64,000 bases of DNA from a virus. A program made the position numbers and the translations under genes. The stretch is taken from positions 37,887 to 101,886 of the IMG/VR virus record IMGVR_UViG_3300028374_000008. The stretch is one strand, 5' to 3'. Of the stretch, positions 7,852-48,164 are shown piece by piece; position 1 is the first letter of the stretch; each line of letters begins with the position of its first letter. Under the pieces are notes generated by a model. It saw only the letters and a program-made list of their open reading frames with translations, was not told the DNA's origin and ran no database searches.

Positions 7852-8504
7852 CGCTCTCTCTTCGCTTTCATCTCTTCGACGTAGAGCTCTATCCCTGCCA
7901 TCAACGCGAGTTGTATGCCGGTAGGGCTCTCGTCGAATGGGGTGTCAGCGAGCTTGTCTTGGTCAAGCCTACCCCACCCCTTTTTTACCTTCTGAACAAC
8001 GTCCTTATCCACACGCGTCAGCTCGTGCAGGCGCTCTTCACAGAACTCTAAGCTCGGAGGCACACAGCACATACCGTCGTGCATGCACGAGGCCGCCGCG
8101 TAGCCTGCAGGTTCGTAGTCGAGGTACTCGTCCGGGGTGCCCTCATCGAACATGTCCTGTGTCAACTCGTTGATCTCGTTGACTGCCCACGCGATGTAGT
8201 CGGGTGATGCTTGTTGGTAGGCGTCTGGGATAACCGGGGTGCCGTTGAACGCTAAGACTGTGTTCTCAAAGACCGACGCGTCGGTGAACGCGCTGGCCTG
8301 TTCCCGTATCGTAATCGCTGCGTGCAGTGCGTCCCACGCCGCGGGCGCCATCTCAATCCCCATCTCCACGAAGTCGAGCTCGAGTGTCTCCGGCTCGGTG
8401 TCGTGTAGCTCATCGCTGTAGAGCGCACGTGCTGCGAGGTAGCGTATCGACGCACATGTGTCGTCGTCACCTAACAGCTTCTTTGCCTGGTCTTTGGAGA
8501 TCAC
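7833..8504 (-). CDS. Hypothetical acidic protein
   Basis: 223 aa, acidic and mostly helical, with a Cys-containing segment (SCMHDGMCCVPPS) in the second half. No recognised family. It follows the 340-aa gene with an ATGA-type overlap (8501-8504) and converges with the MoxR gene, overlapping it by 19 bp. It is likely expressed with the 340-aa gene. Confidence 0.75.
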   Translation of the reverse strand: MISKDQAKKLLGDDDTCASIRYLAARALYSDELHDTEPETLELDFVEMGIEMAPAAWDALHAAITIREQASAFTDASVFENTVLAFNGTPVIPDAYQQASPDYIAWAVNEINELTQDMFDEGTPDEYLDYEPAGYAAASCMHDGMCCVPPSLEFCEERLHELTRVDKDVVQKVKKGWGRLDQDKLADTPFDESPTGIQLALMAGIELYVEEMKAKRERQLASL

Positions 8505-9523
8505 AGGTACGGCTTCAGTTGTGTGTAGAGCATCTTCTGCAGGTCGCCCGGCAGCGTCTCAATGAGCGCCTTGAACTGCGCAGGGTCGATGTCATCGCCG
8601 ACTTTGCAGTGATCTAAGACATCTTCTCCCAAGACGTCCTCGACTTCAGGCGCCATAGCCATGAGCTCTTTCATTGGCACGTCGTGCCCTGCGAGCTGGA
8701 TGGTGCGTGTGCTGGCGATCTTGTCCATGTTGAACACTGTCTCGACCGGGTTAAGCAATGTCCGGTCGTAACGCGGCCAGAACTCTGCCTGCTGGTCGAG
8801 GTCCTCGAGCATCCCTGCCAGCTTAATGAGCTGGTCACGGTCTTTGATGACGCCGCCACGTGGGAAGTTGTTCTCGATGGCCCACGCAAACTTCTGGAAG
8901 TCTGCAGCGCTCTCCACAGTCGGAGCGGCGCCAATGCGGGCTTCCACCCAATCAAGTAAGACGCCTGCATCGCAGGGGGTAAGACCTGCAAATTTGTAGA
9001 TGTCTTTGGGCAGCTGGTCTTCGTCGAGACCAAATGACGCTGCCTTCTCTACAAGCCTGGACGCCGCTTGGGTAAGTGTCGGCGCCATGAGCTTGTTCTT
9101 TTGCTCCAACAGAGCATGCGCGGACACGTCCACATCGCTCGCCTCTTTAACGAGAAGCGCGCCGTATTGTGGTAGAAGAAAGTGTTCAGCATCAGGCTGC
9201 TGGTCGGGTAACATTTCCGCCGCAGTCTTCTTTGGGTGCATCTCTTTTGCATCCAGTCCGAACATCTCCAGAGCGTTGTCGATGCGTTGCATCACGTTCT
9301 GGGGAACATGTGAAGCCTGCTTGGTCGCGTACGCCTTCGAAAGTAGACTGTGCTCCGGCGTGTGCACAGGAAAACGACGTACTTCGGGAAACGCGAATGC
9401 GGTGCCGGGCAGTCCCGGATCGTCCACAGATGCAGTCTTCACCTGCTGAATTGTTGTTGGATACTCACGAGCTATTTGCTGCAGAAGCAAGTGCTTCGTA
9501 TCCGTAAACTGGTCAACTAACAT
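8501..9523 (-). CDS. Hypothetical protein, possibly virion-associated
   Basis: 340 aa, soluble, rich in Leu, Asp and Ala, beginning MLVDQFTDTKHLLLQQIA. No catalytic motif is visible. Its start codon lies 11 bp from the divergent start of the VWA protein, so its promoter must sit within the neighbouring coding sequence. I cannot assign a role. Confidence 0.75.
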   Translation of the reverse strand: MLVDQFTDTKHLLLQQIAREYPTTIQQVKTASVDDPGLPGTAFAFPEVRRFPVHTPEHSLLSKAYATKQASHVPQNVMQRIDNALEMFGLDAKEMHPKKTAAEMLPDQQPDAEHFLLPQYGALLVKEASDVDVSAHALLEQKNKLMAPTLTQAASRLVEKAASFGLDEDQLPKDIYKFAGLTPCDAGVLLDWVEARIGAAPTVESAADFQKFAWAIENNFPRGGVIKDRDQLIKLAGMLEDLDQQAEFWPRYDRTLLNPVETVFNMDKIASTRTIQLAGHDVPMKELMAMAPEVEDVLGEDVLDHCKVGDDIDPAQFKALIETLPGDLQKMLYTQLKPYL

Positions 9524-9534
9524 AAGGAACCACC

Positions 9535-11304
9535 ATGCGAGTGGATGTAGAGGGCAATGCCCTGGAACCAGACGAAACCGTATCAGAAGAGCCCACAGAC
9601 GAGAAGGATCAAGACGATTACGTTGTCTTTGACCCCCAGCAAGATGCGCTGGGCAAATGGCTGGCGACGTTTACACACAACGACTTCGCCCGGGATAACC
9701 CGGACATGTCGGTGTACGCACGCATCATCCGGCAGCTCCGTATCGAACAGATGCCCGACAAGATGATGGCTGTGACCATCAAAAACGGGCGCCACACCCT
9801 CATGTACAACAACGAGTGGGCTGCCCAGTCCACGTTCCTCGAAGTCGTGGCGACGTTCGCGCACGAGGCGTTTCACATTCTCAACCGCGACATCCCTACG
9901 ATGCTGCGCTACCTGTCCGGGTTCCCCGCCGACATGCGTGGTTTCATCCACAGCCTCTACAACGTGGCGATGGACGCCGCGAACAACTGGCTGCTTGTCC
10001 AGAAGATGAGCCACATGAAGTACGGCTCAACAGGCCACTGGGTGCTGCCTGAGCCGATGGGCTTTCCCGGTAACCTGGACACCGACATCTATCAGCAGAT
10101 GTTGTTGGAGCGTGCCGACCAGCTCAAGCAACTGATGGACGAGATTGACGAGCAGATGGCGAAGTCCGGTGGACAGGGTCAACAGCCTCAACCAGGCCAA
10201 GGCCAGCCAGAAGACGGCCAGCCAGGTGAAGGAGAAGGTCAAGGCCAAGACCAGCCAGAAGACGGCGAGCCAGGTGAAGGAGAAGGTCAAGGCCAAGACC
10301 AGCCAGGAGACGGCGAGCCAGGTGAAGGAGAAGGTCAAGGCGACGGCGGAGGTCCCGGGCAAGGACAGCCGCAGCCCGGTGGGCCAGGCGGAGGTGACCC
10401 CATGGACAACATCGACTGGGATAAGTACGGCCCGGTCGTTGAAGCCGTGATGAAGCTGCGTGCACAGGAAAAGCACGACTGGTTCGATGAAAAACTCAAC
10501 CAGATGGCGCCGGAAGAGCTTGAGGCGCGGGCAGCCAACGCCGAGTCACAAGCACGTATGATCTCCATCAAAGCGCTTAAGGACCACAAGAAGCAGATCG
10601 GCAACCTGCCCGCGCACCTCGATCACCGTCTGAAAACACTCCTCGAAGAGGAAGCGGTTCCGTGGACAGCGATCCTGTCCAAGCTCATCGCAGCGCAGAT
10701 GCTTGCGCGGCGTCGTGCCACGATGACCCGCCCTGCCAAGCGTCGCTTCATTCTCTTCACCGAGGACGAGCAGGGTAACTACGTACGACGTGACATGCCT
10801 GCGCCGGCTTACCCAGGCTCCAAGCGTGAGCGTGAATTCGTCATCCTGTTCGCGATTGACACCTCCGGGTCGATGTCTGACCAGGAAGTCATGGAGGGCC
10901 TGTCTGAGATTCAAGGGCTCTTAAAGCGCGCCCCGCACTCCCACTGTATTGTCCTACAGTGCGACACGCACATCTCCGCAGCGCATGTGCTTGGTCCTGA
11001 CATGGACGTTGAGAAGTACGTTGAGGACATCGGACGTACATCCGGCGGCGGCACGCACTTCCTTGAGCCGTTCCGGCTTGCGCGTGCACTGGGCGGGCGG
11101 AGTAAAATGCCGCAGCTCCCCGAGGGGGCGCGCGAGATTCTTAAGCCGTACAAAAAAGCGGACCTCGTCGTCTATCACACCGACACCTACGGCGCGACGC
11201 CTGAGATGGACTTGCACCCTGGGTGCCCGACTCTCTGGACTGTGCCACGTGGCGGTAGCGTCTCCTTCAACCCCGCGTTTGGCCATGTCATCGTTCGAGA
11301 GTGA
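9535..11304 (+). CDS. VWA-domain protein with N-terminal HExxH metallopeptidase-like domain
   Basis: 589 aa. The N-terminal domain contains FAHEAFHIL (HExxH, about 109-113) as in VWA-associated putative metallopeptidases. A Gly/Gln/Pro/Glu-rich linker (about 215-295) holds three 16-residue repeats. The C-terminal VWA domain has a complete MIDAS start, DTSGSMS (about 442), then GRTSGGGTHF (about 500). Such proteins commonly pair with MoxR ATPases, as at 6535. SD AAGGA precedes ATG 9535. Exact activity in the phage is unknown; virion maturation, host remodelling or defence-like conflict are all possible. Confidence 0.85.
   Translation: MRVDVEGNALEPDETVSEEPTDEKDQDDYVVFDPQQDALGKWLATFTHNDFARDNPDMSVYARIIRQLRIEQMPDKMMAVTIKNGRHTLMYNNEWAAQSTFLEVVATFAHEAFHILNRDIPTMLRYLSGFPADMRGFIHSLYNVAMDAANNWLLVQKMSHMKYGSTGHWVLPEPMGFPGNLDTDIYQQMLLERADQLKQLMDEIDEQMAKSGGQGQQPQPGQGQPEDGQPGEGEGQGQDQPEDGEPGEGEGQGQDQPGDGEPGEGEGQGDGGGPGQGQPQPGGPGGGDPMDNIDWDKYGPVVEAVMKLRAQEKHDWFDEKLNQMAPEELEARAANAESQARMISIKALKDHKKQIGNLPAHLDHRLKTLLEEEAVPWTAILSKLIAAQMLARRRATMTRPAKRRFILFTEDEQGNYVRRDMPAPAYPGSKREREFVILFAIDTSGSMSDQEVMEGLSEIQGLLKRAPHSHCIVLQCDTHISAAHVLGPDMDVEKYVEDIGRTSGGGTHFLEPFRLARALGGRSKMPQLPEGAREILKPYKKADLVVYHTDTYGATPEMDLHPGCPTLWTVPRGGSVSFNPAFGHVIVRE
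10210..10341 (+). repeat. 48-bp in-frame tandem repeat in the VWA-protein linker
   Basis: Three units (10210-10257, 10258-10305, 10306-10341 partial) each encode about 16 residues of the type EDGEPGEGEGQGQDQP. The units are nearly identical, so copy number may vary by slippage without loss of frame. The segment is a flexible linker between the HExxH and VWA domains. Confidence 0.85.
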
Positions 11305-27986: not shown

Positions 27987-28442
27987 TTAGCCTGTCGGCT
28001 GTGCAGGAAGCAGAAGTTGCAGCACTTCGCCGGCCTGATTTGTGATCAAAACGGACGCCTCAAACCCTAAGCCGTCCGCCTCAAAAATTAAAGAGACAAG
28101 CTCAGCATCTTGAAGAGCCTCTCGATCGTTGGGCGGCGGGTTGTCTGCCTGGAGGGCGAGCAGAATTTCGTTAGCCTGAGAAATGGACGCCCGTACAACT
28201 TCCTGAATCTCTGCGCGATCAGAAATATTCGAGCCAATGAGAGCGGGGAATTGGGTACCGTAGTTAGCGTCCGATAAGTCGGTGCCCTCCAACGTTAGAA
28301 AGGCTTTTGCCCATCGATTAATGAGTTTCTGAAACCCCTTTACGCCGATGGTTTTGTCGAACCCAAAGGTGTACGTGCCTGCCTGAACACTTTGTTCGTC
28401 AGCGGGTAGGAGCTCAATGTACGTATCAAATGTAGCGGCCAT
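27987..28442 (-). CDS. gp25-like baseplate wedge protein
   Basis: 151 aa with a conserved-looking start (GFQKLINRWAKAFLTLEGTD, about 34-53), NISDRAEIQEVVRASI (about 71-86) and a C-terminal strand, fitting the gp25/W family that initiates sheath contraction. Size matches the family. It overlaps the muralytic gene (ATGA) and precedes the J-like gene by 2 bp. Confidence 0.7.
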   Translation of the reverse strand: MAATFDTYIELLPADEQSVQAGTYTFGFDKTIGVKGFQKLINRWAKAFLTLEGTDLSDANYGTQFPALIGSNISDRAEIQEVVRASISQANEILLALQADNPPPNDREALQDAELVSLIFEADGLGFEASVLITNQAGEVLQLLLPAQPTG

Positions 28443-30100
28443 CAGCTGCCTCCTGTGTCAGGGGTACGAATTGCCCCCTCACCTAAAGCTACGGTCTCGT
28501 TTAGCTTACGCTCTCGCTCTCCGATCTGCACCTCTTCAGCTTTCCACAGGTCTTTACGCGAGGCTGCACCCAGGGCTGCACCGCGAGAGGCTGCCGCCAC
28601 TGCGTTGTACGAGGTTTGGGCGTTGCGTGCCAGTCCCTGTGTCTCTGCCTGCAGTACAGTTTTTGCCGAGCTGTCCCGTGCCTCGGACAAACCACGCGCG
28701 GCTGCACTCCTAAATTCTTGTGTGTCAGAAGGAAGGGGCGCGCCTTGCAAAATCGCTACCGGGTTGAGCGGTACGTTTGCGGCGTTGGAACGCGGGCTGC
28801 CTGAGAACGACCCGCCCTCTAGCACGCCTTTGTTGATTCGGATTTCAAAGTGCAAGTGAGGTGTACGTACAGCGTTGTGGTCCGGTACAAGCCGCCCGTC
28901 GTCGGTTTTCCTTCCTTCTGTTGTGCCTGCCAGACCCACGACGCCTGTCACCGTCCCAAGCTGCTGACGCGTGATCGTGTCGCCCACCTCTACGTTTAGG
29001 GCTTGTAAGTGGGCGTACCGAGATGTCAGACCACCTTCGTGCTGCATGTAAACGACGAAGCCGTAGGTGCTGCTGAGCGACGCGCGTACGACTTCGCCCG
29101 GGGCGAATGCGTAGACAAACTGGTCTGGGTCACTACGTGTGTCGAGGTCCACGCCTTTGTGGCGTCGTGTAATCAGGTTGCCGTTCTCGTCGCGCCCAAG
29201 CTTTTTTGGGTTACGCCCGCCGCCTACGGAGGTTGAACGGCTTTTGGCAAACGGCGACAGTATGTCGATGATATTGAGCGGCCAGATGAAGTCTTCTGGC
29301 TGGTCATCGTTGAAGTTGAGCGTGTAAAACTTCAACTGCGCGTCGCCTAAAATATAACCCACACGGCGTGGGCGCCCAATCTGACGTGGGTCCCCGTTCG
29401 AAGGCATCGACGGGTCGACGTAGCCATTGAGCGCGGTCTTGTAGTTTCCGTTGATGTACTTGGCAAAGGATCCTTGCGTCTGTTGCGCGGCCCCCGCCAC
29501 GGCACTGACTGAAAGTGATCCGCCAGACGTTGCAAAACATTTGGGGCGCGCGTCACCGGCAGGCACGCTGGGCCGGCTGTTCGACCCCGGCACAACATCG
29601 GAGGTGGGAGACAAAGACGCGTCCCCGCCCGACCAGTACGACGCCTCACGCTTGAACCTGCGCAAGTAGATGAGCGGGGAGCCTCCCCAGCGGGAAGCCA
29701 GGAAGCTGTCTGCTGCCTCGAGCCCTTCTGTACGCAAAAGCCTCTTGTAGGCGTCTACTGTTCCGGGGCCGCCTTTCCACAGAAGAGCCATGAGCTCTCG
29801 GTCGTAGCCGTGGAACTGGCGGTAGCGTTCTTGGTAGAGGAAGAAGGCGCGGATCGACGCCCTCCCGTCGCCGTCAAAGTCAGAGTTAACAGCGCCTACG
29901 TCGGTGGCGTTGTCCTCGCCGATCTGGAGCAGTCCGTAGTACTGAGAGTCTTCACGGCGCGCACTGGGGTCGCCGTTGGACTCGATGTCGATGAGCGCTA
30001 AGAGCAACCAATCGGGGTACTGAGACTCCGGCAGGTTAACATCGTTCGCACGCACGCTTCGGATGACTTTGCGCCATCGTTTGACGTTTTCTTTCGACAT
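28442..30100 (-). CDS. Baseplate-associated lytic transglycosylase plus M23 peptidase
   Basis: 552-aa bifunctional muralytic enzyme. The N-terminal SLT-like domain has the catalytic Glu region ALIDIESNGDP (about 31-41), then YYGLLQIGEDNA and ALLWKGGPGTVDAYK. A central linker leads to an M23 LysM-associated peptidase with HKGVDLD (about 316) and HLHFEI (about 414) metal-binding motifs. It cuts glycan strands and peptide cross-links, probably during DNA entry as it is encoded among baseplate genes. The C-terminal ~80 residues are Ala-rich and helical. Confidence 0.88.
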   Translation of the reverse strand: MSKENVKRWRKVIRSVRANDVNLPESQYPDWLLLALIDIESNGDPSARREDSQYYGLLQIGEDNATDVGAVNSDFDGDGRASIRAFFLYQERYRQFHGYDRELMALLWKGGPGTVDAYKRLLRTEGLEAADSFLASRWGGSPLIYLRRFKREASYWSGGDASLSPTSDVVPGSNSRPSVPAGDARPKCFATSGGSLSVSAVAGAAQQTQGSFAKYINGNYKTALNGYVDPSMPSNGDPRQIGRPRRVGYILGDAQLKFYTLNFNDDQPEDFIWPLNIIDILSPFAKSRSTSVGGGRNPKKLGRDENGNLITRRHKGVDLDTRSDPDQFVYAFAPGEVVRASLSSTYGFVVYMQHEGGLTSRYAHLQALNVEVGDTITRQQLGTVTGVVGLAGTTEGRKTDDGRLVPDHNAVRTPHLHFEIRINKGVLEGGSFSGSPRSNAANVPLNPVAILQGAPLPSDTQEFRSAAARGLSEARDSSAKTVLQAETQGLARNAQTSYNAVAAASRGAALGAASRKDLWKAEEVQIGERERKLNETVALGEGAIRTPDTGGS

Positions 30101-30113
30101 GGGGGATCACTCG

Positions 30114-31205
30114 TCAGTCCAACAACGAGTCGATCTTATCGATAATCTTGCGTTTTCGGTAGGACAACTGCCCTTGCGACAGCCCTGTCTTGCTCATGAT
30201 CTTCGGGTTCGACAAGATAGGCTTGCCTGAGTAGCCCGTTGAGTGCTCAAAGATAATCTTATCGATCGGGTCCATGTCGTAGTAAATCATGTCGACCATG
30301 CCGTCTTGGGAGCCGGACGCCCACACAGATTGCTGCTCGAACATGTCACCGCCAAAGTCTTCTGACTCGATGAACTCAGGGCGCATCGTCTGTTGGACCT
30401 CATTGAGCTTGCCCGGCGACCACCCTAAGTGGTCGGATAGCTCGTCGTTGGTGGGCTCTCTGCCCATGCGGTCCATGATTTCGCGTTGGCCTCGCATGTA
30501 CGAGTGGATCTTAAGCTTCTTGTACTCGGGAACACGCACGGCATCCTGGTGCGTGTACACCGCTCGAGAGAGCTTTTGAAGACGATTCATGATGTGAGTG
30601 GAGAGTGCGGCGCCCGCGTTAGGGTCATACGATTTTATCGCCTCGAGCGCAAGTCGTTTGCCCTTTGACTCGAGTACCGGACGTGCGATCGCGCCTGACC
30701 ATTTGTTGACCTGAGACTGGACGAGCGGCTCGACCTGTTGCATCAGGGGCTGCAGCGTCATGGGGCCCGGGTTTTTCTTGTAGGCTTCCCAGAGCTCGAT
30801 GTCTTTGTCTTTTCGTGCTGATGATGTCTTTTCCACCTCATCCTCCGGTCTGAACTCCACGTTGCGCATGTACTTCCCGCCGTCATCTCCTTTGCGTGGG
30901 TCGTCTGTCTCGCCGGTCGCCTGTGCGTCGAACCACTGCGTGCGTGACTTTCCGGGGACGACGGTGTCCTTCTTGTCTGACGGCGTGACGTTCTTAACCG
31001 TGACGCCTGTCTCTTCAGCGACCTCGCGTTCTGCTGCCTGCGCCGCTGTTTCCCCTGGGTCAATGCCTCCGCCGGGTGTCTTCGGCGTGTCCGGTTTGCC
31101 CGGCCATGTCCCAGACAGCACGTTGCCGTCACCGTCGCGGACGAGTACTTCGGCGCGCTGCCTTAGCTTGGCACGCACTTTGTCTGCCGCGGCTTTACTC
31201 AGCAT
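30114..31205 (-). CDS. Nudix hydrolase fused to a sigma-70-like factor
   Basis: 363 aa. Residues 17-120 are a Nudix domain with a complete box (G46, E52, R60-E61, E64-E65, G67). After a charged linker, residues about 140-363 look like a sigma factor. Region 2-like AIKSYDPNAGAALSTHIMNRL is followed by AVRVPE, region 3-like REPTNDELSDHLGWSPGKL, and a 4.2-like helix-turn-helix, IMSKTGLSQGQLSYRKRKII. Nudix enzymes cleave nucleoside diphosphate linkages (e.g. NADH, caps). The sigma part would redirect host RNA polymerase. It sits in the late virion block next to tagged proteins, so virion packaging is possible. Confidence 0.8.
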   Translation of the reverse strand: MLSKAAADKVRAKLRQRAEVLVRDGDGNVLSGTWPGKPDTPKTPGGGIDPGETAAQAAEREVAEETGVTVKNVTPSDKKDTVVPGKSRTQWFDAQATGETDDPRKGDDGGKYMRNVEFRPEDEVEKTSSARKDKDIELWEAYKKNPGPMTLQPLMQQVEPLVQSQVNKWSGAIARPVLESKGKRLALEAIKSYDPNAGAALSTHIMNRLQKLSRAVYTHQDAVRVPEYKKLKIHSYMRGQREIMDRMGREPTNDELSDHLGWSPGKLNEVQQTMRPEFIESEDFGGDMFEQQSVWASGSQDGMVDMIYYDMDPIDKIIFEHSTGYSGKPILSNPKIMSKTGLSQGQLSYRKRKIIDKIDSLLD

Positions 31206-31216
31206 GGGTTATTCAC

Positions 31217-31596
31217 TCACGTATATGGATTCAATCCAAACGTATCCGCGATGGGATGGCTGTCTGCCCAAGCGTCTGGCAAGTAGTCCGTAGACTTCAG
31301 TGCGCCTGCCACCCCACCTGCGGGAGCACCTAATCCCATTCCTGCAAGCGCTGCATCATCCATACGGATGCGGCCACGACTTGCCAGGCTTGCTAAGGCG
31401 CCCAGCCCTGCGCCCAGCCCCCACCTGCTGCGCCACCTCCCAGGGCGGTTCCAAACGTCTTGCCTCCCAGGACAGCCGCATCTTCGCTGCTTACAGGCAT
31501 CATGCTTAGTACCTGCTGATCCACAGGGCCCAGTCCGTAAGCTGTTTTAAGCCCCGCGACCTTCATCGTACGATTGTATCCGTTTTCAAAACTCAT
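31217..31596 (-). CDS. Tagged ejection-type protein 1 (frame change at a G run)
   Basis: Begins with the shared tag MSFENGYNRTMKVAGL. The zero frame stops at 31393 (...GGGWAQGWAP), but the -1 frame continues smoothly (GAGLGALASLASRGRIRMDD...TFGLNPYT) to a stop at 31217. The switch lies at a run of five G on the coding strand (31418-31422). This is either a programmed -1 shift or a one-base mutation/assembly error. Gly/Ala-rich hydrophobic segments follow the tag as in its neighbours. ATGA overlap with the upstream gene. Confidence 0.6.
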
Positions 31597-32027
31597 CAGT
31601 CTTCTCCAAAGTTGGTGCCCAGACCGTAGGCAGCGAACGGCGTAGCCACTGCGCCTGCTCCTACGCCTACATCTTTAAGGGCTTCGTTTCGTGCTGTGCG
31701 TGCGGTGCCAGCAGCCTCCTGGCTACGTAAAGACCGACTAAGTGCGTCGCGTACCGGAATGCGTGGGTCACCCGCGCGCTCAAGCGTTGTTGCCTGCTGA
31801 AGCGCTTTGTGCATTTTTTCTGGGCGCTCAACGACATAGTCATCTTTGCCCTTCCACGTGCGAACGGCCTGCGCGGCGTCGGCGCTAGCAGACTGTGCTG
31901 TTTCTGCCGCTTCACGCATGGCTTTTTGTTTTGCAGGGAGCTCCATCAGCGACGCCGGCGCGCGCATAAGTCTGTCTATGACGCCGGCGCATTTCATCGT
32001 TCGGTTGTATCCGTCCTCGAAGCTCAT
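31596..32027 (-). CDS. Tagged ejection-type protein 2
   Basis: 143 aa. Starts MSFEDGYNRTMKCAGV, then a charged helical middle (many Ala, Glu, Arg) and a C-terminal hydrophobic Gly/Ala segment, GVGAGAVATPFAAYGLGTNF. The tag is shared with four adjacent genes. Probably an internal or ejected virion protein; no enzymatic motif. Confidence 0.65.
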   Translation of the reverse strand: MSFEDGYNRTMKCAGVIDRLMRAPASLMELPAKQKAMREAAETAQSASADAAQAVRTWKGKDDYVVERPEKMHKALQQATTLERAGDPRIPVRDALSRSLRSQEAAGTARTARNEALKDVGVGAGAVATPFAAYGLGTNFGED

Positions 32028-32030
32028 CGT

Positions 32031-32978
32031 TTACTCCGTAAACTTATTCTTGAGACGCGCCCACGGTGTTGTGTCTCGTTCCGTCTGGCGCCCCGCGCCG
32101 TACTGGTAGAACGCACCGCCTGCTCCAACGGCGCCACCCAGTCCCAGCTGCGTAAGCCCGCTGTTGTACTGCCTATTTAAGGAAGGCATGACTTCTTGTG
32201 CCAACTGCCTCCCTTTCGGCGTGGCGCTGATGCGTCGGATTTGTTCAGGATCTGCCTTCTCGACGACCTCGCGAAGTGAGCCCAGCGCCTGCTCTGTTTC
32301 TTGTCCCGCTATGTCGCCTGCACGCCCTGCTGCTTGCTGGCCGGGACCGGATGCTGCTGCGCGTTCTGCTGCGCGTCTCGCCGTCTGGCTGCCTGTAGCC
32401 TCTTCGACGATCTTCCCCGGGTTAGCCGCAGCGGCTTGTGCGCGTTGCGCCACTTCTCTGCGTGCAGTCGGGGTGACGCGGTCAAGCCCTGACGCGACTT
32501 GCTGCGGAGTAATTCCTTTTGTTTCCCCAAGATACAACAGCGCTTGTTGTTCACGGTTCGACAGACCTTCGCCGCCGTCTGCCACGCGTGACAATCCTTT
32601 TCGCGCCTTCCGGCCTTCTATGACGGACTTCACAGGCTGCTTAAATCCTTTCACGCCTGCACTAAGAGCCTCACCTAAGCGGCGCCCCATCCCGCCGCGA
32701 GCGCCAGCAAACCCTTTCATGGCATTCTCGACCCCGTAGATTGCTGACGGCACCAGAAGAGAACCGCCTACAACGCCACCTGCGGTGCCGATACCGCGTT
32801 TAAGTGCGTGTTCGCCCTCAGACAAATCAGCACGCTCTGCCCGCAGGCCGTACTCGTTCGTCCAAGCACCAAACGGGTCCAGCCCCGCCAGGAAATCTTG
32901 CGCGTAGTTCGACGGCGCTGCGCTCTTGGTGAGCCCAGCCAGCTTCATCGTACGGCTGTAGCCATTGTCAAAGCTCAT
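32031..32978 (-). CDS. Tagged ejection-type protein 3
   Basis: 315 aa. Tag MSFDNGYSRTMKLAGL, then a Gly-rich hydrophobic stretch (about 64-85, GGVVGGSLLVPSAIYGVENAM), an Ala/Arg/Gln-rich helical middle, and a second hydrophobic stretch, LGLGGAVGAGGAFYQYGAG. The C-terminus (QYGAG...TPWARLKNKF) resembles that of tagged protein 4. Candidate membrane-active ejection protein. It overlaps the upstream gene by 11 bp. Confidence 0.7.
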   Translation of the reverse strand: MSFDNGYSRTMKLAGLTKSAAPSNYAQDFLAGLDPFGAWTNEYGLRAERADLSEGEHALKRGIGTAGGVVGGSLLVPSAIYGVENAMKGFAGARGGMGRRLGEALSAGVKGFKQPVKSVIEGRKARKGLSRVADGGEGLSNREQQALLYLGETKGITPQQVASGLDRVTPTARREVAQRAQAAAANPGKIVEEATGSQTARRAAERAAASGPGQQAAGRAGDIAGQETEQALGSLREVVEKADPEQIRRISATPKGRQLAQEVMPSLNRQYNSGLTQLGLGGAVGAGGAFYQYGAGRQTERDTTPWARLKNKFTE

Positions 32979-33825
32979 CCGAAAGTCCTTTTATCTTGAC
33001 CCAAGTGGACCCTTCGTTCGCAACAGCGTGGCCGGCACCGTACTGCACAAGATTGCTGAGCGTGTTCACCCCCGCGCCTAACGCTCCGCCCATCAAAGCA
33101 CCCTTTAGACCCCGCTTTAAGTACTTCTCTTTGTCGATGAGCTTGATCGCGTTAGATAAGCCGCGCCCGTCGATTACAGCATCGAAGGCGTCACCCATAG
33201 CCGCGCGGTGTCCTCGCCCGATATTGTCGATGGCCGCATCCAGTCCTTCGTCCTTAATCGTACGCGCGGTGCCTGCCAACGATTGACCCGTGAGCGCGCG
33301 GTACTGTCCTCCCGCAAGCGCGCTTGCTCCCGCTGCCGTGCCAAGTCCTGACAGCGCCACAGGCCCTAAGTACGAACGGTCCTGCACTTTGGCGACCGTC
33401 CCCATCGTGTAGGGGTCGGAAGGGTCAACGCCAATCTCGTAGTTGGCCGCCTTGGTAGCCCCGCGTATTAGGCCTGGCGCCGCTCCCGCCGCCGCTCCTA
33501 TGGCCCCGCCTTTGAGCGCTGCTAAGCCCGACTCAAAAAGGCCCTTGTTCCGGTCTTCAAACGACTTTCCCGTGAGAGCGCGCATGGTCCCGCGTTCCGC
33601 CATGCCGGGTTTTTTATACCCCGTGATTCTCTCCCCGATATTTAGCGACCCTGAAGGCGCCATGGAACGGCGGTAGCCTTTGTTTACAGCAGCGTTATGC
33701 CCCAGTACGCCTCCAACTGCTCCAATACCCGCACCAGTGAGCGCGGTAACGACCGACGCCTCTTTCGTCAGCCCTGCGACCTTGAGTGTTCGGGTGTACC
33801 CATGTGTGTACGAGTCAGATCTCAT
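32968..33825 (-). CDS. Tagged ejection-type protein 4
   Basis: 285 aa from ATG 33825; the second ATG of a pair is chosen because the GAGG site is 6 nt away. Tag: HGYTRTLKVAGL. Then ALTGAGIGAVGGVLG, further Gly/Ala-rich hydrophobic helices (about 110-135, 165-190, 240-265), and the C-terminal motif QYGAG...STWVKIKGLSDEL shared with protein 3. Repeated glycine-zipper-like segments suggest membrane insertion during DNA entry. Confidence 0.7.
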   Translation of the reverse strand: MRSDSYTHGYTRTLKVAGLTKEASVVTALTGAGIGAVGGVLGHNAAVNKGYRRSMAPSGSLNIGERITGYKKPGMAERGTMRALTGKSFEDRNKGLFESGLAALKGGAIGAAAGAAPGLIRGATKAANYEIGVDPSDPYTMGTVAKVQDRSYLGPVALSGLGTAAGASALAGGQYRALTGQSLAGTARTIKDEGLDAAIDNIGRGHRAAMGDAFDAVIDGRGLSNAIKLIDKEKYLKRGLKGALMGGALGAGVNTLSNLVQYGAGHAVANEGSTWVKIKGLSDEL

Positions 33826-34975
33826 CATATACCTCTTGTCCTGCCATAGTAGCCCCACCGGTACCTACGCCTGTTGCGACGCCACCTGCTAACGACTCTG
33901 GAACACCGCGCCGCCCTGTCGCCAAGTTGCGTAATTTGCGGGACACGACGGGGTTCATCAATGTGCCGGGAACAGGGTTCGACTCAATCAATTTAAACGA
34001 CCCGTCAGGCAGCTCTGCTACGTCCAGTGCTTGGTGCAAATGTTCAGTAGACCCCACGGGCCCCTCTTCGGCGAGACCCTTCAGCGACTCTCGAACAAAC
34101 TGGTGCATTCGCTCACGCTTGCCCCCCGTCACAGGCAAGTGGGCAAAGCCACCTTCCCCTGCGCCGACCGCAGAGGACACTGAGTTCCACGTGTCGCGCA
34201 TCCGTCCTTCCGGCATGCGCCGATACGTCGCGGTGAACGGTTCCGTGTTAAGCGCGTGCACGCGGTATTCATTCTTAATCGGAATCTTTTCCTGGACGAC
34301 AAAGCCAGTCGGGTTGTCGAGCGCTTCGCGTACCGAACGCGCGTTGTCAGGTGTGGTCTCTTGCACAAAGTCGTCAATGGACCCTAGTGACCCCGTTGAC
34401 GGCTTGATGACGTAGCCGCGGTCTCCGAAGTGACGTTTGAGGCCGTCGTAGTCTCCGTACTGCCGCATAGCCTGGTCAAGGCGATACGTCTCGGGCAAGG
34501 CGTCCGGGGCGACCTGGCGCATTACTGCGTCGAAGTTTGCTTTGTCAGAGAGGGGCCCGGGAAGCGCGCCAGCGTTGATGTTTACGTCACCTTCCACTGG
34601 CAGCCCGTACCCATGGTGCAGCACTGCTTTTCCTGGTCGGGCGTATCTGCCGCCGCTCTCCCGCACCGCGTCAACCATGTCGGCGGATACATCTTTTCCG
34701 CCGAAGATATGTCGTCTAATGTTTGCAGCCTGGGGCGAGCCTGTCGCGAACTCAAGCGCGCGGTCGCCGATCTGCTCTTGCAGCGCGCGTACTGTGGGGT
34801 TGTCGTGCAGCCGCTTGCGCATCAAGTACGGCGTCGCCAACGCTGCCGTACCCGCTCCTACGGCGGACGGGATCGCGTAGTCTGGCTCATCGCGCCCTGT
34901 GACTGCGTCGATATAGTCTGACAGCCCCGCCAGCTTGAACGTGCGTCGCACCGCGTTGTCAAAGTGGAGGGTCAT
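33815..34975 (-). CDS. Tagged ejection-type protein 5 with ATP-grasp domain
   Basis: 386 aa. N-terminal tag variant FDNAVRRTFKLAGL, then a hydrophobic segment (about 34-54). From about residue 110 an ATP-grasp core is visible: YVIKPSTGSLGS (K191), VVQEKIPIKNEYRVH (E229, E236, R238) and DVAELPDGSFKLIESNPVPG (D318, E331, N333). ATP-grasp enzymes join carboxylates to amines or thiols using ATP. The C-terminus has another Gly-rich hydrophobic stretch. An enzyme carrying the tag implies that the tag is an address for cargo. Substrate unknown. Confidence 0.75.
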   Translation of the reverse strand: MTLHFDNAVRRTFKLAGLSDYIDAVTGRDEPDYAIPSAVGAGTAALATPYLMRKRLHDNPTVRALQEQIGDRALEFATGSPQAANIRRHIFGGKDVSADMVDAVRESGGRYARPGKAVLHHGYGLPVEGDVNINAGALPGPLSDKANFDAVMRQVAPDALPETYRLDQAMRQYGDYDGLKRHFGDRGYVIKPSTGSLGSIDDFVQETTPDNARSVREALDNPTGFVVQEKIPIKNEYRVHALNTEPFTATYRRMPEGRMRDTWNSVSSAVGAGEGGFAHLPVTGGKRERMHQFVRESLKGLAEEGPVGSTEHLHQALDVAELPDGSFKLIESNPVPGTLMNPVVSRKLRNLATGRRGVPESLAGGVATGVGTGGATMAGQEVYDEI

Positions 34976-37239
34976 GCTGGGAAGTCGTTAAGAGATTGAT
35001 AAACGCGACGGCGAAACTTGAGCAGCCGATTCTGCCATGATCTTATCGTATCTGAGTTGATCGGAGTACAGGGATTTCCTTCCGTGTTGACCTGGGGTGG
35101 CTGGCTGTCGGGCCCTTCTTCTAAGTTTAAGATACGAACGTAATAACGCGCGCCCTTTCCTTCCGTTGTGTTCAGCGGACTGCGTACGCCTTCACGAACA
35201 CCGAGTGAGCCTTGTGCTTCAATCCACTGATCGAGCGTCGTAATAGGACGTGATGCGTAACTAAAAGCGGCGCCGGGGTCCGTAAGCATTTGGCGGTACG
35301 CTGACCGTATCTTAAAGTCAGGTGCTTCTCCTGTACTGCGGTCGGATACAAGCTTGAGCTTCTTCGGCTCGTCGTTGGGGTCAGACGATGGGATGTGTGC
35401 AAGCAGGTCGGCGTTGAGGTCAAGACGTTCGATCGAGCCATCTTCTTTTTGCAGGCCGAATACCTCGAGGAAATCGAAGATGACTCGCGGGTCAATGTCG
35501 TCTCCAGTCTGCCCAAAGAACGCGCGGGCGTAGTACTCGCGCATACCTTTTAGAGTCTGCGTGCGGTCGCGGATGGTGTAGATGGGCTGGCGCGGGGCAC
35601 CCCGGACAAATGTATCGAAGTCGACCGTACGCTCTCCGTCCTCAAACAGGTTGTCCATCATCGTGTCGATGTACTGACTGAGCGTTTGTGCGTGCGTGAA
35701 ATTGACGCTCGTCGACATGCTGTTCTGGCTGAAGCTGTGGGTGACGTTGGTGAAGTACCCAAACACGTGGTTACCCGACGTCTCATTGTCGATGACAATC
35801 CCCGGGAATCCTGGCAGCACATACGGGTTGAAGTGCATCGTTACGCCGCCGTTACGACGTGATGCGCGTGTGCGGAAGTGCTCGTAGCGGACGTACAGCC
35901 GTTGCAGGTTTGCGTTGTACGACTCACGCCCTTCCGTGTCCTTTTCGCCCGACTCCTTTGCCAGGAAGTCGTACCACGTTGGCGTGTCGAGCTGATTGTA
36001 GACGGGCCCCTTGAAGTACTCTTCGGGGGTCAGAAAGTTGTGTATGTTTGAGCCGTCCACCCCCGACGTGTCTTTTGAGGTCATGCGCTGGTTCGCAATC
36101 GCGGGGTAGCCAACTGTCAGCGCACGCGCAGCAAGCGACGCCTGCCCGGACGAGTCCGGCGCGTCCAGATAATTGAAGATGTGGGGGTTGCCCAGGTAGG
36201 ACCGCGTAGGTTGGGTGGCGTAGTTTTCCTCGTAGGAAAATCCTGTCACCATCGAAGGCCACAGCACGTTGCACGCAGGCGGAATGCTGAACAGTGTCTG
36301 TGGTTTGGTCATGTAGCTTGCGATGACCTTTTCTTCGGCGACCCCCGCAGCGTCTTCGCCTGTACCCGTTATGTCTTTTGTTTCTGCGGCTACTTTTAAG
36401 TACGGAGCGGTCGGCATGAACGCCAGCTCGTAGTAGACGTGTTGAAAAATAGACTGGATCAACTTGTAGAACGAGCCATTCGGGATTTGCTCACCGATCC
36501 CCGCGAGCGCTTTAACCGCTGACGCCGATTGTGCTGATTTGAACAAAGGGAACACGCCCCCTGTTCCGCCGCGCAAAGGACCCTGTCCAAGCGTCTTTAA
36601 GGAATCCTCAATGAAAGGTGATGGCACAAACCGGGAAGAAAACTTCGTACGAAAATTCCACGGCGCAAACCACTGTTGCACGATGACCGACTTCTCTGTG
36701 TCGGTGAAGACGCTCCCAAGAAGGTAGTCCAATATGTTTTTGACGAAATCAAATGGGCGCTCAATACGAGTGTCTCCCGAGACGCCGGAGTTGAACAGGG
36801 AGTTGGTGGGCGCGAACGGGTTGACCGCCCCCGTCACATCTGCCCGGTCTACGGAGGCCGCGTTACGCGCGATGTTATTCAGGCTCGTGACGAAGAAGGG
36901 GAACAGGCGCGTCAACGCCTCGATGAAGTCAATGGCGACGAAGTTCATCGAGCGCCCCTGCGACTGGGCGTTGTAGCCGTAGTTTAAGATCTCCCCATCA
37001 AACATCAGACGGAACTGGTCCGGCTCGCGCGTGTTTCGGCTCCGGTACGTATCGAGCGCGAAGATGGTGCACCGAACACGGTCGTCGGCGCCTATGCGTT
37101 GCATGATCTTATCTGCAGGGACCGCTATCTGTGCTTGCGGAATGCCCCACACGCCGAACGACACCGACGCGGAGATCGCAGGGACCTCGATGCCATTAAA
37201 GTAGACGAGCCAACTTCCTCGGTGGTGCAACGCAGACAT
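34972..37239 (-). CDS. Baseplate hub-like tail protein
   Basis: 755 aa from ATG 37239. An upstream extension of the frame is rejected because GGAGG precedes this ATG, which overlaps the previous stop (TAATG). The N-terminal beta domain (VYFNGIEVPAISASVSFGVWGIPQAQIAV, then VRCTIFALD, FDGEILNYGY) fits the hub/gp27-like or late-control-D fold. The large middle is unassigned. Expected to sit at the tail tip below the tape measure. Confidence 0.65.
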   Translation of the reverse strand: MSALHHRGSWLVYFNGIEVPAISASVSFGVWGIPQAQIAVPADKIMQRIGADDRVRCTIFALDTYRSRNTREPDQFRLMFDGEILNYGYNAQSQGRSMNFVAIDFIEALTRLFPFFVTSLNNIARNAASVDRADVTGAVNPFAPTNSLFNSGVSGDTRIERPFDFVKNILDYLLGSVFTDTEKSVIVQQWFAPWNFRTKFSSRFVPSPFIEDSLKTLGQGPLRGGTGGVFPLFKSAQSASAVKALAGIGEQIPNGSFYKLIQSIFQHVYYELAFMPTAPYLKVAAETKDITGTGEDAAGVAEEKVIASYMTKPQTLFSIPPACNVLWPSMVTGFSYEENYATQPTRSYLGNPHIFNYLDAPDSSGQASLAARALTVGYPAIANQRMTSKDTSGVDGSNIHNFLTPEEYFKGPVYNQLDTPTWYDFLAKESGEKDTEGRESYNANLQRLYVRYEHFRTRASRRNGGVTMHFNPYVLPGFPGIVIDNETSGNHVFGYFTNVTHSFSQNSMSTSVNFTHAQTLSQYIDTMMDNLFEDGERTVDFDTFVRGAPRQPIYTIRDRTQTLKGMREYYARAFFGQTGDDIDPRVIFDFLEVFGLQKEDGSIERLDLNADLLAHIPSSDPNDEPKKLKLVSDRSTGEAPDFKIRSAYRQMLTDPGAAFSYASRPITTLDQWIEAQGSLGVREGVRSPLNTTEGKGARYYVRILNLEEGPDSQPPQVNTEGNPCTPINSDTIRSWQNRLLKFRRRVYQSLNDFPA

Positions 37240-37694
37240 TAAACCTCCACAATGAACCCATCCTGTGCGAACGCCGCTGTCAGGCAGATACCCGCAGCGA
37301 CGGCAACGCGGTAAAGCGCATTGTCGGAGCGGAAGTTGTCGAGCCACAACCTCTCGACGACTGGGTCGATACCCGCCGTGCGCAGCTCGTTTATCGCTGG
37401 GCGTATCAGACCGTAGCGGGGACTTAGGTCTGTGTCGACATCGATGAGGCGGCGCTTCGTGGAGAATTGAACGTCTGTCACATCGTCAGCAAAGTAGCCC
37501 GAGAAGAGGGCGCCCGGCTCAAACAGCGTAGCGGTCGTAATCAGCGCACGCGCCGCGGTGGGCGGGTTCGTGCCTGTTAAGATGAACCGAAGAAACTCTT
37601 GGCGTAGCCTGTTTGAGTATGGGTAGTTCGGCGTGCCGCTCAAGATGACGTCTTCAATGGCCAGCGTTGTGGGGTCGGTGTCTTCGTACGCCAT
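37239..37694 (-). CDS. Tail/baseplate accessory protein
   Basis: 151 aa beginning MAYEDTDPTTLAIEDVILSG; ends in a hydrophobic strand. No catalytic motif. Stop and start codons overlap with both neighbours (TAATG at 37239; ATGG at 37694), so it is tightly co-translated with the hub genes. It is probably a tail-completion or hub-connector protein. Confidence 0.65.
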   Translation of the reverse strand: MAYEDTDPTTLAIEDVILSGTPNYPYSNRLRQEFLRFILTGTNPPTAARALITTATLFEPGALFSGYFADDVTDVQFSTKRRLIDVDTDLSPRYGLIRPAINELRTAGIDPVVERLWLDNFRSDNALYRVAVAAGICLTAAFAQDGFIVEV

Positions 37695-46147: not shown

Positions 46148-46723
46148 ATGGCAAAGGACTGGCTGACGACGCTGGAGAAGGGAGCCCGCAAGCAGCAGGG
46201 TAGTAACCCGGACCTGTACGAAAAGAACCGTCACTACAAGGACAATGCGTCTCTTGGCATGGACGACGTTGACATTGAAGAAGAGTGGTCGTTTGAGAAG
46301 GAGGTTTATGGTCGCGACCCGTATGCTGTGACACGGCTGCATACTGTCCACCCGGAAGGCATTGAACAGGCGTTGCAGGCGGGCGTCGACTTGGACACCT
46401 GCTACGTGTGCGAAGTGGAGGTCACGCGTCCAAAATTCCAGCCTGACAACGTAGACTTATTTCTCGATAAGTACCCCGCAGTACACAGCTTACACAAAAA
46501 CGACTTCTACGTGTTAGGATTTGGTTCGTACAAGAAAAGCTACGACCGCGGGTGCATTGACTTAAGTGTTTACCTGGTAGACACGCACCTCACTTCGACG
46601 ACGTACAGTCACACAGGCTTGGTTCGCCCGCCCATCATATTCAAGAAGATGTCGTACCTGCTGGACACCACTTCAACCCCTGACTGGATTAAAAATCATG
46701 GACGCACGATCCGCGCTGATTGA
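46148..46723 (+). CDS. Hypothetical protein
   Basis: 191 aa beginning MAKDWLTTLEKGARKQQG. It has a helical N-terminus and a beta-rich C-terminal half with one CYVC pair (about residue 81-84). SD GAGGAAG upstream. Overlaps the next gene by 26 bp. Confidence 0.65.
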   Translation: MAKDWLTTLEKGARKQQGSNPDLYEKNRHYKDNASLGMDDVDIEEEWSFEKEVYGRDPYAVTRLHTVHPEGIEQALQAGVDLDTCYVCEVEVTRPKFQPDNVDLFLDKYPAVHSLHKNDFYVLGFGSYKKSYDRGCIDLSVYLVDTHLTSTTYSHTGLVRPPIIFKKMSYLLDTTSTPDWIKNHGRTIRAD

Positions 46724-47003
46724 AAGCTGGGCACACTTAAGCCGGACGCTTCCCAGTGGCCTTATGAACCACCCTACAGCGCGTGAGGTGACGACGTTGG
46801 TCTATCGCATTATCTCAGATGAGATCAACGACGTGCGCACATGGGACGATGTGCGTGACCTCACAACGAGTGTTCTGGACGAAGTTTGGGCGCCTTCTCT
46901 GCCAAAAGAAGTCTACGTGCACGTGGTACAAGTATATGAAACATGGGTTAACCAAGCACAAAAGCTTGCGCCGACCTACACCAACCCTCCCCCCTACGTA
47001 TAA
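46698..47003 (+). CDS. Small helical hypothetical protein
   Basis: 101 aa, mostly helical, beginning MDARSALIESWAHLSRTLP. Nested at the end of the previous gene. Unknown function. Confidence 0.6.
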   Translation: MDARSALIESWAHLSRTLPSGLMNHPTAREVTTLVYRIISDEINDVRTWDDVRDLTTSVLDEVWAPSLPKEVYVHVVQVYETWVNQAQKLAPTYTNPPPYV

Positions 47004-47016
47004 CTAAGGAACAGCT

Positions 47017-47385
47017 ATGAAACCCAACGAACGATATGACGCGAGCAACGTCGAGCAGACTGCTGAGTACAACGGCATCCCGACGTGGGTGCGTGTTTTT
47101 GAAATCCCCGACTACGCCGACTGGCAGATCTTCATTGGCTACAACGCCATGGACGAGGACACCCCGCCGCCGAAGCGTTTCTACGTGCACGTCTCACACC
47201 CCAAACTCATCGAAGACGAAGAAGAAATCGGCCTGGAGCTCGACGCCAGTGGCGACGCCACGATGCAAACGCCGGACGCGCTTCAGAAGGCTCTCGGGGA
47301 CGAGACCGACGACCTCGTTGCGCTGGCCAAGCAGGCGCTTGAAACCTACGCCGCGCTCCTCTTCCTTCGCGGAGAGACTACGTGA
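47017..47385 (+). CDS. Acidic hypothetical protein
   Basis: 122 aa, very acidic (many Asp/Glu), with SD AAGGAAC before ATG 47017. Followed by a GTGA overlap with the next gene. Its acidity could suit DNA mimicry or protein binding, but nothing specific is visible. Confidence 0.65.
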   Translation: MKPNERYDASNVEQTAEYNGIPTWVRVFEIPDYADWQIFIGYNAMDEDTPPPKRFYVHVSHPKLIEDEEEIGLELDASGDATMQTPDALQKALGDETDDLVALAKQALETYAALLFLRGETT

Positions 47386-48164
47386 GCTTGAACAACACTG
47401 ACGTCGCTACACTATTCGTACGGAAACGTGGGGCAGGGTCGGGCCGCAGCAGTACAGGCAACTTCTGGTGGGAAGATGGAAAAATCTACTCCTACAACAT
47501 GCTGATTGGACAGTACTGCGGCTCGACGTTGTTTTTGACCACACGTGACGACTCCCCGTCTGTCACGACAACCCAACACATAGGAAAACTTTACACCGCT
47601 TCGTTTAACACGACGCGCGGTATCGTGTCATTTGACCTGCTTGATCAAGTAGGCGTACGCCTGGGCGACGTTGTCGCTTGGACGCGGCATACATACGGGG
47701 GCGACTGCATTAGTCTTGGCTTTAAAGCGTTCTGGTTGCACGTCGCCGAGTACCTCCCCCCAGACCCCCGGCTCACCACCATTGGACATACATGCGTGTG
47801 GCGAACCCACCGCAGCTGCACACCGTTTGAGCTACGTGACGCGCTCATCCCTGACGCAGTCAACAGCGCTGCGTGGGACACCACTGTGTGGATGATCGGC
47901 GACTACTACATCGTGGGACTAAACGACACGGACTACACGCGTGCGCACAAAGGCACGCCCACCTGGAAGATTGGCGTAAAACAGAGACCGATGACGGCGC
48001 TCGACCGTGCCAAAGAAGACCGGTACGCCTACTGCGGTATGTTACGCATTGAAGGGTACAGCTTCTCTCCGTCCAACGACGGTCATGAGTGGTTCCGCGT
48101 CGTGCCGGCCAACGTCTTGTCGTACCCCGCTAACTTCTCCCACCCTGTGCCCTTAGATGAGTAA
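47382..48164 (+). CDS. Hypothetical protein
   Basis: 260 aa from a GTG start (GTGA overlap). Beta-rich with several Trp/Tyr; no motif recognised. It overlaps the next gene (ATG within GATGAGTAA). Confidence 0.6.
   Translation: MSLNNTDVATLFVRKRGAGSGRSSTGNFWWEDGKIYSYNMLIGQYCGSTLFLTTRDDSPSVTTTQHIGKLYTASFNTTRGIVSFDLLDQVGVRLGDVVAWTRHTYGGDCISLGFKAFWLHVAEYLPPDPRLTTIGHTCVWRTHRSCTPFELRDALIPDAVNSAAWDTTVWMIGDYYIVGLNDTDYTRAHKGTPTWKIGVKQRPMTALDRAKEDRYAYCGMLRIEGYSFSPSNDGHEWFRVVPANVLSYPANFSHPVPLDE

Follow-up and report, generated by a model that had tools for sequence, protein, structure and literature searches.

Introduction

In bacteriophage T4, internal proteins stay in the core of the head as long as they retain their targeting sequences, and the cargo of the head includes the ADP-ribosyltransferase Alt (PMC9026906). 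Here we describe a short tag that is shared by otherwise unlike proteins in a 64,000-nucleotide stretch of phage DNA, referred to as the window, which covers bases 37887-101886 of the 101,886-base IMG/VR phage record IMGVR_UViG_3300028374_000008 (labelled G000). Five consecutive minus-strand open reading frames of the window (31217-34975) each encode a protein with a 14-residue tag of the consensus [FY]-x-x-G-Y-x-R-T-[ML]-K-x-A-G-[LV], which we call form A. We think it probable that this tag serves as a capsid-targeting propeptide, mimics the C-terminal repeat of the scaffold-like protein and is cut off at K-x-A, with the cargo staying in the head and being injected. The proteins that a phage carries into the cell are usually unknown without proteomics. 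If the tag is a loading signal, virion cargo could be read from sequence across a large environmental phage family, many unnamed proteins would gain a role as injected effectors, and the general question of how cargo finds its way into the prohead would become testable.

The G000 record covers part of the genome of a large tailed phage whose family is poorly known. Salmonella phage Arash (180.8 kb) and Vibrio phage D69 (186.7 kb) are distant relatives by their genes for terminase, capsid, protease, RNA polymerase and sigma factor, and a search of IMG/VR with the capsid protein gave 155 relatives, some on contigs of 180-198 kb. Two close relatives are used below, G001, in which the structural genes are conserved and collinear with those of G000, and G006, in which the capsid protein is 80% identical. 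A literature search returned no paper on phage Arash, and the portions of text it returned make no mention of the K-x-A sites or the tag.

Results

The five tagged proteins and their tags are as follows.

33815..34975, minus strand: tagged protein A, 386 amino acids; tag FDNAVRRTFKLAGL followed by a possible ATP-grasp-like domain of the R2K clade; C-terminus rich in Gly/Ala
34922-34963, minus strand: tag A, FDNAVRRTFKLAGL, 14 residues; matrix score 27.9
32968..33858, minus strand: tagged protein B, 296 amino acids as listed; tag YTHGYTRTLKVAGL, then TKEAS, glycine-zipper segments and a C-terminal QYGAG...W
33769-33810, minus strand: tag B, YTHGYTRTLKVAGL, 14 residues; matrix score 33.1
32031..32978, minus strand: tagged protein C, 315 amino acids; tag FDNGYSRTMKLAGL, then TKSAAP, Gly/Ala-rich, with a C-terminal QYGAG...W
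32931-32972, minus strand: tag C, FDNGYSRTMKLAGL, 14 residues; matrix score 40.1; 17.4 on the scaffold-repeat profile, the second-best match
31596..32027, minus strand: tagged protein D, 143 amino acids; tag FEDGYNRTMKCAGV and a C-terminal Gly/Ala-rich segment
31980-32021, minus strand: tag D, FEDGYNRTMKCAGV, 14 residues; matrix score 42.9
31217..31596, minus strand: tagged protein E; tag FENGYNRTMKVAGL; the frame ends at 31393 and resumes in the -1 frame to 31217
31549-31590, minus strand: tag E, FENGYNRTMKVAGL, 14 residues; matrix score 44.0; 20.7 on the scaffold-repeat profile, the best match in 1.04 million residues

The first-pass annotation of this DNA had reported five consecutive proteins with a common tag, and all five are where it placed them. 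Their tags score 27.9-44.0 bits on a position-specific matrix that was built from tags including these five themselves. Because the best score in five shuffles of 226,000 residues was 13.5, a chance match of the motif was rejected. Tag A (FDNAVRRTFKLAGL) is the most divergent of the five and lacks the GY of the proposed motif. With the tag removed the bodies of the proteins are largely unrelated, in agreement with the annotation, and the QYGAG...W motif that it ascribed to two of them is accompanied by weak C-terminal similarity between proteins B and C (66 residues, E = 8e-4). It had not recognised the motif, and neither Pfam nor PHROGs contains a domain of which the tag is a part; we therefore also rejected the idea that the tag is a known domain. 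Codons differ in 90 of 175 identical residue pairs among the seven tags of the G000 contig. The tag is thus conserved at the protein level and a recent DNA duplication of the 5' ends was ruled out.

None of the tagged proteins of the window matched a PHROG with a function. Protein B belongs to no Pfam or PHROG family, and at full length has no relative among IMG/VR or GenBank phages. Protein A matched Pfam R2K_3 (E = 0.0012) with 19.5 bits, under the curated gathering cut-off of 26.3, and an alignment-free AlphaFold model was unusable (predicted local distance difference test score, 38) and gave the ATP-grasp assignment no structural support. The GTG start listed for 32968-33858 is probably too early, and an ATG near 33825-33828 places the tag of protein B closer to the N-terminus. 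Protein E has a stop in its own frame at 31393 with the -1 frame open down to 31217, the shift lying near GGTGGGGGCT (31393-31460); this break may be the loss of a base in sequencing or assembly, a real mutation or a programmed frameshift.

The tag is not limited to these five proteins. A non-redundant collection across the family comprised 61 tagged proteins, with the tag N-terminal in nearly all. The G000 contig encodes seven, the five in the window and two neighbouring paralogues outside it (L003 6104 and L003 6964), which are located beside the prohead protease gene in the head module. There are nine in G001, where eight tags (one C-terminal and one internal) occur between the tail-hub-like and sigma factor genes that also flank the window locus and one gene is elsewhere, and about ten at two loci in G006. 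A strict form-A DNA pattern run over IMG/VR found unrelated proteins only, and a pattern with F at the eighth position recovered the G001 species plus chance matches. Form A was absent from the head modules of 80 capsid relatives. This led to form B, [YF]xxGxxxALxxLG[LF]..KxA, which several proteins carry in each of the relatives G009, G012 and G018. Phages Arash and D69 have no tags in the regions scanned. Apart from the tag, the tagged genes of G000 and G001 are without counterpart in each other while the neighbouring genes are conserved. No cargo was seen between the hub and sigma genes of 12 distant relatives examined, and the tagged genes of relatives are at scattered loci.

K-x-A is also a feature of the head proteins of this family. 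In four phages it is abundant in proteins encoded by the head module (for example, 10 observed vs 2.1 expected). Among 400 gapped residue pairs K-x-A ranks at the top in the scaffold-like family (513 vs 134), in the p9076 family (188 vs 46) and in the small core protein family (185 vs 47). All 78 of 78 capsid proteins have it at the same place near the N-terminus, and the consensus of the site is L-E-K-x-A-[AS]. A K-x-A follows within 17 residues of the tag in 26 of the 61 tagged proteins, as against 3.6% of equivalent segments further along the same proteins. The phage also has a prohead-protease-like gene (PHROG 18299, 1e-9). H136 and S187 are invariant in 26 sequences of this family, its BFVD matches are prohead proteases, and tblastn matches include the annotated prohead proteases gp19 of phage G, gp77 of E3 and gp13 of Stormageddon. 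With these matches and the conserved His and Ser, the protein resembles prohead proteases of the HK97/T4 type. Because of the enrichment in core and head proteins, the position in the capsid protein, the coupling to the tag, the protease gene and the parallel with phage SPN3US described below, K-x-A is probably the site at which the prohead protease cuts.

A scaffold-like protein that bears a likeness to the tag is encoded between the protease and capsid genes (L003:3301-3912). Its family is the most K-x-A-rich of all, with about a 4-fold excess, and we infer that it is the scaffold. The C-terminus of this protein has repeats of [YF]-E-x-G-Y-N-D-T-[ML]-x-x-I-H-K-x-A. The element [FY]xxG[YFW] occurs 71 times vs 1.7 expected in 44 non-redundant homologues, and not once in the p9076, small core protein and portal-like families. 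When a profile made from scaffold repeats only was run over 1.04 million residues, the two best matches were window tags E and C, and tags accounted for 9 of the 25 matches of at least 10 bits. In G001, the end of the scaffold-like protein (FVRGYEDMHKIAE) has spacing equal to that of the G001 tags (FERGYYSFMKLAE). The scaffold repeat of Arash and D69 differs, being GxxFxxAxELVKEA.

Several kinds of protein are attached to the tag, and those fused domains to which a name can be given are enzymes or small functional domains. These include a 2H phosphoesterase (Pfam 9e-18), a HiPIP-like protein and LigD-type 3'-phosphoesterases with an ATP-dependent DNA ligase (L181:14294-15781 and L160:17898-19805), one of them with a GNAT domain; the LigD-type proteins, if injected, could repair the entering genome. 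Weaker assignments are the ATP-grasp domain already mentioned and ADP-ribosyltransferase-like cargo in G006, which we offer only as a suggestion from short motifs found by eye and sub-threshold matches. Hydrophobic segments rich in Gly/Ala occur in 18 of 42 tagged proteins and in 93 of 967 untagged ones (Fisher p = 6e-8). In L005:12288-13499, a 2H phosphoesterase is in frame with an internal tag; E-K-E-A stands directly before an internal ATG that is preceded by a Shine-Dalgarno-like AAGGA, and the gene may encode a cleavable fusion or have two overlapping starts.

Three further genes of the window concern the locus or its K-x-A motif.

34972..37347, minus strand: tail-hub/baseplate-like conserved structural gene, borders the cargo locus; 48% identical in G001
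30114..31205, minus strand: sigma factor with a fused NUDIX hydrolase, flanks the opposite end of the cargo locus; Pfam NUDIX 8.6e-14, Sigma70_r3 1.2e-8
8501..9670 (contig 46387-47556), minus strand: K-x-A-rich conserved protein; 9 sites vs 2.3 expected

The first weakly matches a 'cell wall hydrolase, structural protein' of phage Arash. The second is homologous to the sigma factor gene of Arash, and the NUDIX fusion is present in both G000 and G001. In G006 the sigma factor (L131:1460-3481) instead has an N-terminal region with ADP-ribosyltransferase-like motifs; most of the more distant relatives have a short sigma open frame, of the length that a sigma factor alone would have, and a genome scan with the NUDIX-sigma query gave only weak NUDIX or sigma matches. 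Adjoining the sigma factor gene, 28442-30100 encodes an M23 peptidase whose N-terminal region is SLT-like; this cell-wall enzyme is probably carried by the virion. The third gene is outside the head module. Its homologue in G001 has 13 K-x-A motifs and the counterparts in Arash and D69 are also K-x-A-rich, and its product is probably another substrate of the same protease. Subunits of a phage-encoded multisubunit RNA polymerase, with homologues in Arash and D69, are encoded at L003:14820-18035 and L004:1-4294.

Discussion

The analysis revealed a tag common to non-homologous cargo, an enrichment of K-x-A and its coupling to the tag, a likeness between tag and scaffold repeat, and a prohead-protease-like gene. 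The explanation we favour is that during head assembly the tag would let proteins dock into the prohead core in the manner of scaffold, by imitating the C-terminal repeat [YF]-E-x-G-Y-N-D-T-[ML]...K-x-A of the scaffold-like protein. The head protease would free the cargo by a cut after K-x-A while destroying the scaffold, and the freed cargo would remain in the virion head and be injected along with the DNA. The cargo genes would be interchangeable, lineage-specific accessory genes for enzymes and for Gly/Ala-rich, possibly membrane-active proteins. This extends the idea of the first-pass annotation, a cargo signal or propeptide on the principle of the T4 internal proteins, which gains support from the K-x-A in or after the tag, the scaffold-repeat likeness and the non-homologous, lineage-specific nature of the genes.

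We more tentatively propose that such scaffold mimicry occurs naturally across the family, and would give this slightly less than an even chance. Each lineage would place the docking repeat of its scaffold and a protease site on acquired effector genes, with the tag co-evolving with that lineage's scaffold. The distribution of tag forms can be read this way, as form A has the K-x-A spacing of its own scaffold in G001, form B occurs in others and neither is found in Arash and D69. If this is true, a gain of about 15 codons would be enough to make virion cargo of the product of any gene, and the targeting signal may have originated by copying a piece of scaffold.

Several results weigh against the explanation we favour. 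More than half of the tagged proteins have no extra K-x-A after the tag, form A of the tag itself containing one. In two or three proteins the tag is not N-terminal (it is at the C-terminus of a 72-amino-acid protein of G001, at an internal position behind the 2H domain and in the middle of a G006 protein), unlike in T4. A fold search of the PDB with the protease gave no more than a weak match to T4 gp21 (E about 1). The reversed-sequence control of the scaffold profile yielded 17 matches of at least 10 bits, with scores up to 17.9, and we therefore place weight on where the real matches fall and not on their number. The [FY]xxG[YFW] units of the scaffold were chosen with the tag in mind, and only the remaining positions are an independent match; these do speak for the explanation, since of all [FY]xxG[YFW] sites at least three of five further consensus features are present in 86% of tags, 80% of scaffold units and 2% of other sites. 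Last, the window locus lies between tail-type genes.

One alternative is that the tag and K-x-A are docking elements only, by which proteins would attach to the core or to the inside of the capsid with no cleavage at K-x-A. The K-x-A of the scaffold-like protein recurs with a hydrophobic residue two before the K (LEKxA), as would suit a helical binding motif. However, recurrence is also what the consulted sections of PMC10052503 describe for the protease motif within SPN3US propeptides, and we regard docking without cleavage as unlikely, though it is the alternative to be taken most seriously. The annotation had left open whether the tag is an address for the capsid or for the tail. The position of the window locus, between a tail-hub-like gene and the sigma factor and M23/SLT genes, would fit an address to the tail or baseplate, for example for components ejected through the tail. 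Against this, G000 has two tagged genes next to its prohead protease gene in the head module, the tagged genes of relatives are scattered, and both K-x-A and the resemblance to scaffold point to the head; the capsid is thus favoured and a tail address seems quite improbable.

It is also very improbable that the tag is a remnant of duplication, in which a small ancestral protein multiplied, the copies gained unrelated extensions and the tag was kept for folding or translation and not for addressing. The paralogy of L003 6104 and 6964 and the C-terminal stretch common to proteins B and C are in keeping with this, but the codons differ for more than half of the identical tag residues, and the tag resembles the scaffold repeat, is coupled to K-x-A and is borne by dozens of dissimilar proteins whose genes are scattered. 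Lastly, these phages have an RNA polymerase and a sigma factor of their own, a trait of some phages that form intracellular compartments, and many cargo proteins have hydrophobic Gly/Ala-rich segments, but an address within the infected cell (replication compartment or membrane) and not the virion would leave unexplained the coupling to K-x-A and the likeness to a core protein whose gene is close to that of the capsid, and we give it hardly any credence.

The proposed capsid-targeting propeptide can be compared with four known systems. The tag would work like the capsid-targeting sequence (CTS) of T4, yet is not a member of that family, from which its sequence and its protease motif set it apart. 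In T4, gp21 cleaves behind a motif with E, whereas the tags have K-x-A and no conserved E at the site. The tag can also be internal or C-terminal, and we know of no description of scaffold-repeat resemblance for the CTS. The G000-family phages are not T4-like by any gene tested. The similarities are that the CTS is a short N-terminal peptide on unlike, dispensable and variable proteins (IPI, IPII and IPIII, with Alt as a further internal protein), that it is removed by the head protease, that cargo includes Alt and injected host-takeover factors, and that the genes bearing it vary between relatives (PMC9026906). Likewise, the tag is a short peptide (about 10-20 residues) at the N-terminus of unlike proteins (61, with the two or three exceptions), and the cargo genes vary between relatives (G000 vs G001, and the 12 relatives). 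If our explanation is true, this is a second, apparently independent capsid-targeting system besides that of T4.

In the giant Salmonella phage SPN3US, several head and ejection proteins have N-terminal propeptides of 20-254 residues that are cut by the prohead protease gp245, according to the sections of PMC10052503 consulted. There, the cleavage motif is another one, the propeptides are mostly long, and those sections describe no common short tag on unrelated cargo. The capsid localisation signal of DarB in phage P1 is also similar, in that its N-terminal 30 residues suffice to bring a reporter into the capsid (PMC9024508). It differs in concerning one protein and in having no scaffold resemblance, P1 being thought to be without a separate scaffold. 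In P22, the principle of loading is the fusion of cargo to a piece of scaffold protein. Engineered cargo-scaffold fusions, as described in the consulted part of PMC9962691, resemble the tag in that cargo is loaded via the fused scaffold piece. These are man-made in P22, whereas the system here would be natural, and its new element is the resemblance of the tag to the scaffold.

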